Shown here: piece by piece, positions 4,915-8,455 of the stretch
Layout: each line of letters begins with the position of its first letter
Position numbering within the stretch: the stretch's first letter is position 1
Origin: Acidimicrobiia bacterium
Lineage (GTDB): Bacteria > Acidobacteriota > Terriglobia > Bryobacterales > Bryobacteraceae
Assembly: GCA_016871315.1 (NCBI GenBank)
Contig: VFZE01000003.1
Coordinates: forward strand, 124,001-188,000
Direction: 5' to 3'
Length of the DNA stretch: 64,000 nucleotides
Translations under genes and position numbers: made by a program
Notes under the pieces: model-generated
What the model was told of the DNA's origin: nothing
The model's database searches: none
What the model saw: the letters and a program-made list of their open reading frames with translations, nothing else

Positions 4915-5608
4915 ACAGCCGCGTCAGCTGATACAGCGTCTTCAGTAGGCTGCGGAACCGGAAAAACTGGCTGCTTCCGTGCTGCCGCGCGTAGTGATGC
5001 ACGCCCACTTCCTCGGTCCGGTAGGGGCTCAACTCCAGCTTGCGCACCAGCTCTACGCAGATCGTGCCGCTGGTGGAGGTAAGCCGGATCTTGTCCAGCA
5101 TCTCGCGCCGGATCAGCCGGAAGTCGCAATCCACATCCCGGATCCTTATCCGGAACAGGAACCGCGCGAACCGGTTGTACACGTTGCCGATCCAGATACG
5201 GTGCCACGGATCGTTCCGCTCCATCTTGTAGCCATTGACCAGTCCAACCCCTGGCTGCATCTTCGCGAGCAGCTTCGGCATTTCACCCACGTCGTACTGG
5301 CCGTCGCCGTCGGTATAAAAAACCAGTTCTTTGGTTGCCGCCGCGAAGCCGCTCCGCAGCGCCCCGCCGTAACCGCGGTTCTGCGGATGCGTCACCACCC
5401 GCAGCCGTTCCCCGAACCGGCTTTGCAACTCCGCCAGCACCTCGGCTGTGTTGTCCTGGCTGCCGTCGTTGACCACGATCACCTCATAGTCTTCGACACT
5501 TTTCGACAGTACCTCGAAGGTTTTGGAAATCAGACCGGGCAGGCTCGGCGCGTCGTTATACGCCGGGAAAAATACACTGAGGCTCTCTGTTTTTTCGTTA
5601 GCCATCAC
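4862..5608 (-). CDS. Glycosyltransferase family 2 (dolichyl-phosphate mannose synthase-like)
   Basis: A 248-residue GT-A enzyme that likely moves a sugar from a nucleotide donor to a lipid carrier at the inner membrane face. Motifs in order are SVFFPAYNDAPSLP (N-terminal strand and donor site), VIVVNDGSQDNT, the DxD-type metal site YTDGDGQYD, and a C-terminal amphipathic or hydrophobic stretch LTRLFIVVVVLG that may anchor it. The start is GTG at 5608 or the adjacent ATG at 5605; the choice changes one residue. Its 3' end overlaps the convergent retropepsin-like ORF by 53 bases. The length agrees with short DPM1/ArnC-like enzymes lacking C-terminal membrane pairs. The acceptor is unknown. Confidence 0.9.
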   Translation of the reverse strand: MMANEKTESLSVFFPAYNDAPSLPGLISKTFEVLSKSVEDYEVIVVNDGSQDNTAEVLAELQSRFGERLRVVTHPQNRGYGGALRSGFAAATKELVFYTDGDGQYDVGEMPKLLAKMQPGVGLVNGYKMERNDPWHRIWIGNVYNRFARFLFRIRIRDVDCDFRLIRREMLDKIRLTSTSGTICVELVRKLELSPYRTEEVGVHHYARQHGSSQFFRFRSLLKTLYQLTRLFIVVVVLGRWTDRPQKG

Positions 5609-5819
5609 CCATGCCGCATTCGAAAGTTAACCATCATCGCATAGTTCAGCGGCGCTTGGAGTCTTGCGTTCACAAAAGAGGCTAAAAAATTTTCACCTCG
5701 CCCTAGCCTATTGAAAACAAATTGCTAATCAGCCAGCTGATCGTTGATCGTTTCGCCCGATTCCCGGCGGTATTGCTTCCCCGAACCCTAGCCTCGTAGC
5801 CGGAGGGCAGACCAAACCG

Positions 5820-7433
5820 ATGCAATCACCAAGGCATCCTTCCCGAAAACTGACTATCATCGCTCAGGACCCGGGCGTTCGTGTCAAGGGAGAAATCCTC
5901 ACCGCGCAGGTGGATGTTCCCGCCGAACCGCTGCTGCCGGGACCCAGAGGCTACCGCGTCCAGGTCATCGACTACGACGCCTCCTCGGCCTCGTTCCACA
6001 CGCCTGCCCGGATTCCCTCCACCAAGGACCGCTTCCTCAACGCCTCCTCCTCGCGCCTGCTCAAGGATCCGGCCTTCCACGCCCAGAACGTCTACGCGAT
6101 CGCCATGCGCACGCTCGCGCGGTTTGAGTTCGCGCTCGGGCGCCGCGTCGGGTGGGGCTTCTCCGGTCACCAGCTCCAGATCGCCCCTCACGCCTTCGCC
6201 GGGCCCAATGCTTTCTATTCGCCACGTGACCGCATGCTGGCCTTCGGCTACTTTCCGGGGCGCAAAGGCACGGTCTACACTTGCCTGTCGCACGATGTTG
6301 TGGCGCACGAAACCGCGCATGCACTGCTTGACGGGCTGCGCCGGCGGTACATGGAGCCCTCCTCGCCCGACCAGGGCGCCTTTCATGAAGGCTTCTCCGA
6401 CCTGGTCGCCCTGCTCAGCGTCTTTTCCCTGCCGAGGGTTGTCGAATCGCTGCTCGGCCCCAAGCGCCTGCAGGCTTCGCGGCTTACGCCGGAGCGGCTG
6501 CGATCCTCGGTGCTCTTCTCTCTCGCCGAACAGATGGGCGAAGAGATCGCCGGCGCGCGCGGCATGCCATTACGCCGCTCGGCCACTCTTTCGCCATCGC
6601 CCCGCCTGCTCAAGGATCCCGAGTTTCAGGAGCCGCACCGGCGCGGCGAAATCCTGGTCGCTGCCGTGATGAATGCCTTTCTCGAGATCTGGCGCACCCG
6701 CATGCGCGGACTTGGGCGCACGTTCCTGGACCGCGAGCGCGTCGCCGAAGAAGCGGCCACTACTGCATCACACCTGCTCACCCTATGCATCCGTGGGCTC
6801 GACTACGCACCGCCCACCGACATTCTGTTCAGCGATTTCCTGAGCGCTATCCTGACGGCCGACCGCGAAATCCAGCCGGACGATTCGCGCTACCAGTACC
6901 GGGAAACACTGCGGCAAAGCTTCGCCTCCTACGGCATCAAGCCCACCTCCAAAGGCGACCACGGGGTTTGGGAGCCGCCCGAGAAAACGGTGTATACAAA
7001 ACAAACCCATTTTGAGAGTCTGCAGCGCTCCCCCGAGGAGGTGTTCGGTTTTCTTTGGGAGAACCGCGCCTCGCTCGGACTCTACCGCGATGCCCATACC
7101 GCGGTGCAAAGCGTCCGCCCATGCCTCCGCATCGGGCCAGACGGCTTCCTGTTGCGGGAAACCGTGGCCGAGTATGTCCAGAAGATCAAGCTACGCGCGG
7201 CCGAGCTGCGCAAGCTGAAGATCCGCCGCCCCAACGATATGCCACTGGGCCACGAGGTCACCCTGTACGGCGGCGGTGCGCTCATCTTCAACGAATTCGG
7301 CCAGCTGAAATTCCACGCACGCAACCGCATCGACAACGCGGGGCGGCAATCGGCACGCCTTGCCTATTTATGGGAGAACCCGCACCCCGGCTTCGCCGAG
7401 ATCCACCGCATGCGAGGTTCCATCGGCAAATGA
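5820..7433 (+). CDS. Gluzincin-like zinc metallopeptidase, uncharacterised family
   Basis: A 537-residue protein with a complete gluzincin zinc site: H163-E-T-A-H167 in VVAHETAHALLDG, and E190 in GAFHEGFSDL, which matches the EGxSD third-ligand motif of thermolysin-type enzymes. No signal peptide is visible, so the protein is probably cytoplasmic. The N-terminal 150 residues and the C-terminal 300 residues match no family I can name. A weak ribosome-binding site (ggaggg) lies about 12 bases before the ATG, and no other good start is in frame. Its stop codon overlaps the ATG of the metallo-beta-lactamase gene (ATGA), so the two are almost certainly co-translated. Substrate and pathway are unknown. 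Confidence 0.75.
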   Translation: MQSPRHPSRKLTIIAQDPGVRVKGEILTAQVDVPAEPLLPGPRGYRVQVIDYDASSASFHTPARIPSTKDRFLNASSSRLLKDPAFHAQNVYAIAMRTLARFEFALGRRVGWGFSGHQLQIAPHAFAGPNAFYSPRDRMLAFGYFPGRKGTVYTCLSHDVVAHETAHALLDGLRRRYMEPSSPDQGAFHEGFSDLVALLSVFSLPRVVESLLGPKRLQASRLTPERLRSSVLFSLAEQMGEEIAGARGMPLRRSATLSPSPRLLKDPEFQEPHRRGEILVAAVMNAFLEIWRTRMRGLGRTFLDRERVAEEAATTASHLLTLCIRGLDYAPPTDILFSDFLSAILTADREIQPDDSRYQYRETLRQSFASYGIKPTSKGDHGVWEPPEKTVYTKQTHFESLQRSPEEVFGFLWENRASLGLYRDAHTAVQSVRPCLRIGPDGFLLRETVAEYVQKIKLRAAELRKLKIRRPNDMPLGHEVTLYGGGALIFNEFGQLKFHARNRIDNAGRQSARLAYLWENPHPGFAEIHRMRGSIGK

Positions 7434-8455
7434 AACCGCACCTTTTTTCCCTGCGCGCCTACAACGTCGGCTTCGGCGACTGTTTCCTTCTGCGCTTTGA
7501 ATACGCGGAATTCCGCCGCCACGTGCTGATTGACTTCGGCGGCCTGCACGCCCCGGAGAGCCTGCTGCTGCGTATCGCGCACGACATCCGCCGCCACTCG
7601 GGCGGCAAGCTCGACGCCGTAGTCGCCACGCATCCGCATACCGACCACATTAACGGCTTTGCCGGCCTGCCGGGCTCCGTGATCGCTTCCTGCAACCCGG
7701 ATGTCGTGGTTCAGCCCTGGACGCTCGACAAGATGGAATTCTTCCGATCCATCAACAAGACGGCGCTCGGCAATCTGGCGCGGATGGGCCGCCACTATGA
7801 TTACGCCTGGCACGGATCGGAGTCAGGACTGCAAGCGGTGCTGCCCGGCGTGGTGACCACCGTTCTTGGTCCGCCCACGTTGAAACAATCCGGCGATATT
7901 TCCCGCCAGCGCACGCGCGACCCGGGCGAGTTCTGGCATTTGCACAAGAACAACGGCGTCTCCCAGATCCCTCCGCACGCACGCTGGCTGGCACGGCGGT
8001 TGGGGACCATCGCCGAGCGTGAGTCGCTGGAGACCTTCCAGCTGCTTGACCAGGCGGTGAACAACTCGAGCGTGATTCTGCTGTTTGAAGCCGGACGCCG
8101 CAAGCTCCTGTTCCCCGGCGATGCGCAGATCGAAAGCTGGCAGCACACGTTAAGGCAACCTGCACTGTGCAACCTGCTCCGCGGCGTGGACCTCTACAAG
8201 GTGGGCCACCACGGCAGTCTGAACGCCACACCGAAGTCGCTCTGGCGGCTCTTCTCCAAGCGCTCTTCCGAGGAGCATCCTGACCGCCTGATCTCGGTGC
8301 TTTCCACGCGCGAAGGCAAGCACGGCGACCCGCGCCTGGGAACGGAAGTGCCGCGCCGCAAATTGGTGGAGGAGCTTGCTTCGCAGAGCCGGCTCATCAG
8401 CACGGCCACGCTGGGCGACCGTCTGTACATGGACGTGGAACTCGCCCTCGAGTAG
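7430..8455 (+). CDS. ComEC/Rec2-like metallo-beta-lactamase-fold hydrolase
   Basis: A 341-residue stand-alone MBL-fold protein resembling the C-terminal hydrolase domain of ComEC. Early residues YNVGFGDCFLLRF and VLIDFGG form the first strands; H68-P-H70-T-D72-H73 is the HxHxDH metal motif; LLFPGDAQ provides the metal-bridging Asp; YKVGHHGSLNATP is the ComEC-type HHGS motif. There are no membrane segments or signal peptide. The start was chosen as the ATG at 7430 overlapping the upstream stop, because coding similarity begins there although the frame stays open further upstream. Relatives hydrolyse nucleic acids or phosphodiesters, but activity here is unproven. Tight coupling to the metallopeptidase points to one shared process. 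Confidence 0.85.
   Translation: MKPHLFSLRAYNVGFGDCFLLRFEYAEFRRHVLIDFGGLHAPESLLLRIAHDIRRHSGGKLDAVVATHPHTDHINGFAGLPGSVIASCNPDVVVQPWTLDKMEFFRSINKTALGNLARMGRHYDYAWHGSESGLQAVLPGVVTTVLGPPTLKQSGDISRQRTRDPGEFWHLHKNNGVSQIPPHARWLARRLGTIAERESLETFQLLDQAVNNSSVILLFEAGRRKLLFPGDAQIESWQHTLRQPALCNLLRGVDLYKVGHHGSLNATPKSLWRLFSKRSSEEHPDRLISVLSTREGKHGDPRLGTEVPRRKLVEELASQSRLISTATLGDRLYMDVELALE

Follow-up and report, generated by a model that had tools for sequence, protein, structure and literature searches.

We found that two adjacent genes in the 64,000-nt stretch of DNA analyzed here (the window), encoding a metallopeptidase and a metallo-β-lactamase (MBL) hydrolase, form a conserved two-gene module, and that the two genes occur together across at least ten phyla. 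The family they represent probably serves bacterial immunity as an effector cassette that combines a protease with a pro-nuclease. The features of the locus are collected in Table 1. Both ORFs were confirmed on the (+) strand, with ATGA common to both, and they are real rather than chance ORFs, since distant homologs exist and their GC3 values (0.78 and 0.81) are coding-like. The pair stands alone among ordinary genes: its left neighbor encodes a GT2 glycosyltransferase and its right neighbor a phosphoglucomutase-like protein (Pfam), and the two neighbors lie on the opposite strand. Thus, the ATGA junction and the unrelated neighbors described in the initial annotation were both confirmed, and, in line with that annotation, no export signal was seen by eye at the N-terminus of either protein. 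By analogy with published systems, both proteins would act inside the cell.

Table 1. Features of the peptidase–MBL locus (positions in the window).
Feature	Position	Strand	Basis
Thermolysin-fold (gluzincin) metallopeptidase, 537 aa, gene 1 of the pair	5820..7433	+	ORF, alignment, model, fold match
Peptidase catalytic domain, residues 7–381, M4/M36 match Z 16–20	5838..6962	+	Fold search
Peptidase zinc site, H163-E-x-x-H167 (6306–6320) and E190 (6387–6389)	6306..6389	+	Sequence, homolog alignment
Peptidase C-terminal domain, residues 383–537	6966..7430	+	High pLDDT; NTF2-like fold match weak (Z 6.8, tentative)
ComEC-type metallo-β-lactamase hydrolase, 341 aa, predicted DNase, gene 2, ATGA overlap	7430..8455	+	ORF, family match, model
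MBL metal motif HPHTDH, residues 68–73	7631..7648	+	Sequence, homolog alignment
Insert 1 site, 10 residues in the window copy (family median 65, minimum 49)	7724..7753	+	MBL alignment
Insert 2 region, residues 149–210, shortened	7874..8059	+	Model, MBL alignment
MBL metal motif HHGS, residues 260–263	8207..8218	+	Sequence, homolog alignment

Analysis of the peptidase revealed a confident AlphaFold2 model (pLDDT 92.8; input of 71 aligned sequences), whose residues 7–381 matched M36 and M4 proteases with Z scores from 19.8 to 16.2 (best scores, 19.8 for M36 and 19.1 for M4), an rmsd of 4–5 and 11–16% identity. H163, E164, H167, E190 (within HEGFSD) and H273 showed no variation across the 71 homologs, which bears out the HExxH...EGFSD zinc site noted previously. 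From what is known of thermolysin, we take E190 to be the third zinc ligand, and H273 is presumably a candidate equivalent of thermolysin His231 (the transition-state histidine). On the model and the invariant residues, the window peptidase combines the thermolysin fold, HExxH and a downstream Glu, as gluzincins do. By sequence, no Pfam family scored above its cut-off (15.6 bits for Peptidase_M4 [PF01447] versus the 22.4 required), and NCBIfam, PADLOC, PHROGs and a sequence search of the PDB returned zero matches, consistent with the earlier view that the peptidase lies outside nameable sequence families. A full-length alignment with a characterized housekeeping family was also looked for in Pfam and the PDB and not found. 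Membership among housekeeping M4 proteases was dropped, the Pfam M4 score being below its cut-off, and M4 was retained as a fold only. The C-terminal domain possibly has a sensor or partner-binding role; its matches to orange carotenoid protein and PARC6 were too weak to assign a function.

The architecture of the peptidase varies among its relatives. Long N-terminal extensions were seen in L144–L146, L166–L173, L030 and L213, several of which have an MBL gene downstream, and the extension is an S8 subtilase where tested (L144) and is annotated as such in L030 and L213, giving two protease classes per chain. On viral or phage contigs (L113–L135), distant peptidase relatives (23–37% identity, mostly 450–590 aa) have no MBL nearby. 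Two further peptidases without an MBL (L147 and L150) adjoin large proteins, of which the L147 neighbor carries amidase-2 and caspase domains and the L150 neighbor is alike, judging by its start.

The second protein matched Lactamase_B and, more weakly or partially, the LmuA, Avs1a, RTasMBL (DRT-associated MBL) and ComEC models (Pfam, NCBIfam and PADLOC). The closest solved structure to its model (pLDDT 88.0) was the ComEC nuclease domain (Z 25.2, rmsd 2.8 over 253 residues), with the phosphorylcholine esterase Pce as runner-up (Z 20.2). Residues H68-x-H70-x-D72-H73, D231 and H260-H261-G-S did not vary across 66 homologs, and the window MBL has a complete metal site of the ComEC-like type; the claim of a soluble ComEC-type MBL with HPHTDH and HHGS motifs therefore stands. 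The window genome's own ComEC is encoded at a separate site.

A species-level collection contained at least 542 related stretches; the module is thus common in this set, yet its peptidase went unmatched in all four family libraries. Among the best 80 of these stretches, taken as loci, 76 have the MBL gene directly after the peptidase gene and in the same orientation, and in 73 of the 76 the two genes are separated by −28 to +23 bp. Of the other four, L054 is cut off by the end of its contig, and L033, L034 and L061 have enough sequence for an MBL gene but lack one, so the peptidase may serve another use. A constant third gene was sought in the 80 loci; none was universal and the other neighbors vary. 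The pair is therefore conserved across phyla with varying flanks and is not confined to close relatives. Rows of the tree span 12 phyla, including one archaeal row, a metagenome bin that may be misbinned, and phylum labels change 18 times versus a minimum of 11, an excess that is no proof of transfer. Peptidase relatives are patchy, being found in 23 of 297 genomes in the phylum and 35 of 399 in the class, and one DNA search revealed no E. coli relatives. Plasmid-borne copies in Rhizobium, Agrobacterium, Hymenobacter, Deinococcus and Isosphaeraceae show that the pair is mobile. The peptidase and MBL trees correlated with r = 0.67 (5000 permutations reached 0.28 at most) and had 34 of 62 bipartitions in common, shared organismal history contributing to this correlation. 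The MBL gene is accordingly accompanied by an adjacent protease gene that co-evolves with it.

HamM and Avs1a have been described as ComEC-like MBL antiphage pro-nucleases, in which two inserts block the active site (Tuck 2025; PMC12799240). Cutting of these inserts by a partner trypsin-like protease activates the nuclease, the same gating operates in CanC with a caspase as the protease, and nuclease homologs are also found alongside proteases from "other diverse families" (PMC12799240). In our alignment, two hypervariable inserts were present in all 65 homologs of the window MBL, with insert 1 between T98 and N109 (median 65 residues) and insert 2 between P148 and W186 (median 57 residues; window numbering). 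Inserts occur at matching alignment positions in the Avs1a-like MBL of L174, which has a trypsin-like neighbor (called by eye); the genome's own ComEC is without both. Judged by alignment position, the two inserts of all 65 homologs are putative gates. Insert 1 contains LxxM in 82% of loops (14% when shuffled) and insert 2 contains [LPVI]FP in 65% (4% when shuffled), enrichments that are only indicative because the sequences are related. Thermolysin-like enzymes favor cutting before large hydrophobic residues, which makes these motifs at most candidate cleavage sites.

By analogy with the gated nucleases, infection would trigger the thermolysin-fold protease via its own extra domains or a partner system, and the protease would then cut one or both of the disordered inserts of the ComEC-like MBL, which would lie over its active site. 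Released from its inserts, the MBL would degrade DNA, and the infected cell would die or halt growth, stopping phage spread. This account draws on the coupled and co-evolving genes, the two folds with their catalytic residues preserved and the gate-like inserts, and, for location, cleavage, DNase activity, trigger and defense, largely on the published analogs. Since most loci lack a constant sensor gene, the candidates for sensing are the protease itself, through its extra domains, and the neighboring systems. The initial annotation had proposed a conflict module in which the protease activates and the MBL degrades nucleic acid, and the data, read through published analogs, favor this for the family, although the window copy is atypical.

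Specifically, the window MBL differs from all 65 homologs in its gates. Insert 1 is all but gone, insert 2 comprises 37 residues versus a minimum of 50 in the homologs, with residues 161–177 (7910–7960, within the insert 2 region) predicted to be disordered (pLDDT < 50), and neither insert retains its motif (LxxM in insert 1, LFP-like in insert 2). By insert length, the protein is an outlier among 66 MBLs. Its terminal branch is about twice the median (1.09 versus 0.49), and that of the window peptidase is 0.50 versus a median of 0.36. In the nearest relatives (L033 and L034, both Bryobacterales), the peptidase gene adjoins the same GT2 gene (~80% identical) and the MBL gene is absent. Upstream of the window pair, positions 5600–5644 hold what looks like the leftover of an older peptidase start (RKLTIIA followed by a stop), beside the GT2 start and ~220 bp before the present gene. 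This leftover aligns with the peptidase start of L033 and L034, which is located right at the GT2 start there; therefore, the peptidase locus appears to be old in this lineage, and the present peptidase start to have been displaced by ~220 bp, which suggests duplication or replacement at the locus.

The largely missing gates, the long branch and the MBL-less relatives imply that the nuclease is being lost or remodeled in the window lineage. It is quite possible, if short of probable, that the window pair is a decaying relic with little or no function, left behind as a Bryobacterales-like lineage loses its nuclease, and the leftover peptidase start fits this reading too. Against it, both frames are open, the insert deletions are in frame, every metal ligand of the MBL is retained and GC3 remains coding-like. 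With its gates mostly gone and no other system beside it, the copy could be loosely regulated, otherwise regulated or on its way out.

For the family as a whole, we compared the 110 nearest neighbors of the pair with 110 genes taken from other parts of similar genomes, a rough control, using PADLOC at an E-value of 1e-10. Neighbors matched 35 PADLOC families versus 18 in the control, with stronger best matches, but generic models (mad and DpdF) matched both sets, and the enrichment in defense genes is therefore modest only. On individual plasmids, the association is clear: pairs adjoin CBASS in individual cases, SIR2 genes lie beside some, and others adjoin an intact Hachiman. The HamA of that Hachiman retains its D...GESK nuclease motif, so the pair is not required as its effector. 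In Agrobacterium and Rhizobium plasmids (L209 and L210), the order patatin, peptidase, MBL, HamA and HamB recurs in two plasmid settings. In plasmids of two Hymenobacter species (L211 and L214), a gene for an SMC-like ATPase lies 15–24 bp upstream of the peptidase–MBL pair, and the ATPase is LmuB-like (PADLOC; tested on one of the two loci, L211). The suggested check for the pair in defense islands gave a clear association on individual plasmids and only a modest enrichment overall. Many pair loci, many of them chromosomal, sit among ordinary genes, and this, with the weak island enrichment, is what a housekeeping or stress pair devoted to protein quality control and nucleic-acid turnover, rather than immunity, would look like. 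We consider such a role improbable, given the patchy presence of the pair even within the family, the mixing of phyla in the tree and the many plasmid copies that adjoin defense genes.

Phospholipase genes were also found near the pair. A patatin gene lies within 8 kb in 14 of the 80 loci (adjacent and co-directional in 11 of these), a Tle1-like lipase gene is adjacent in five of the 80, and in Bradyrhizobium quebecense, a PLD-like gene precedes the pair, the peptidase there being annotated "peptidase M4". Patatin, Tle1-like and PLD proteins are unrelated phospholipase types that recur next to the pair (L040, L041, L048, L060, L084, L217 and others). In Mycobacterium sp. ACS1612 (L177), an Avs1a-related MBL stands beside a DUF2235/Tle1-like gene (by eye), with the peptidase absent. 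The recurrent phospholipases might be additional substrates of the protease and act as second effectors, and the presence of three kinds raises the question of whether two killing enzymes are under the control of a single protease. They are also compatible, as is the second rank of Pce in the fold search, with an MBL that is not a nuclease but works alongside these neighbors as a phosphodiesterase whose substrates are lipid headgroups, wall polymers or nucleotides. This is unlikely, as ComEC ranked clearly higher, the sequence models matched were those of defense MBLs and ComEC, and most pair loci are without a phospholipase. Finally, a toxin–antidote pair, in which the peptidase destroys a toxic MBL instead of activating it, would account for the tight coupling of the two genes and for the three loci with a peptidase alone, tolerable for an antidote, but is very improbable, since inserts with conserved motifs at the gate positions point to site-specific cutting and the published precedent is activation (PMC12799240).

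Within the preferred reading of a protease plus pro-nuclease cassette, the pair could be a widespread, self-standing immune system: its thermolysin-fold protease, located inside the cell, would sense infection via its extra domains and activate a gated DNase and, at many loci, a phospholipase (patatin, Tle1-like or PLD). We advance this proposal tentatively and hold it to be rather doubtful. If true, its several pro-enzymes would make it a protease-driven death program without an NTPase sensor.

Comparison with known systems places the pair closest to HamM and Avs1a, which occur in Hachiman (HamMAB), AVAST type 1, Lamassu and DRT variants (PMC12799240). Both groups have a ComEC-like MBL with two inserts in matching places and a partner protease gene that is jointly inherited, and both lie near several unrelated defense systems. 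The HamM and Avs1a protease is a trypsin fused to a defense protein, whereas the present partner is a thermolysin-fold zinc enzyme, and the window contains neither a trypsin or caspase partner (with no C14 match) nor a protease fused to a defense protein. In addition, the MBL gene of the present pair is downstream, most loci lack a sensor gene and the window copy is without insert 1. Canu (KaeCanABC; PMC12799240) likewise has a stand-alone protease gene with a gated MBL gene downstream; its protease is a caspase (C14) with an Ig-like domain, accompanied by CanB, whereas the present pair lacks CanB and its protease is an HExxH zinc enzyme that ends in a different C-terminal domain. The Hymenobacter arrangement of SMC ATPase, peptidase and MBL resembles Lamassu with an MBL–protease effector, here with a zinc protease, but the SMC ATPase was found only in the Hymenobacter relatives, and no LmuB SMC ATPase lies beside the window pair.

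The MBL shares its fold and metal motifs with the MBL domain of ComEC/Rec2, from which it differs in being a soluble single domain without the membrane channel domain and in belonging to a family that carries two inserts and has a partner protease. Similarly, the peptidase has the catalytic fold, HExxH and downstream Glu of M4/M36 enzymes (thermolysin and fungalysin), from which it is set apart by low identity, an extra C-terminal domain, an MBL partner and no visible export signal. The pair had initially been presented as a possible new two-gene system. In kind it is only partly new, as trypsin–MBL and caspase–MBL pairs with such a mechanism are already published (PMC12799240), and the novelty is narrower than first claimed, the principle having been reported with other proteases. 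In the literature searched for a metalloprotease–MBL defense pair, only that study was relevant, and its main text does not name this protease; as far as that literature goes, neither this class of protease nor its range has been described. If the proposed mechanism is true, zinc thermolysin-like enzymes would be a third protease class that unlocks gated nucleases in immunity, which suggests that the gated nuclease evolved with whatever protease was available.
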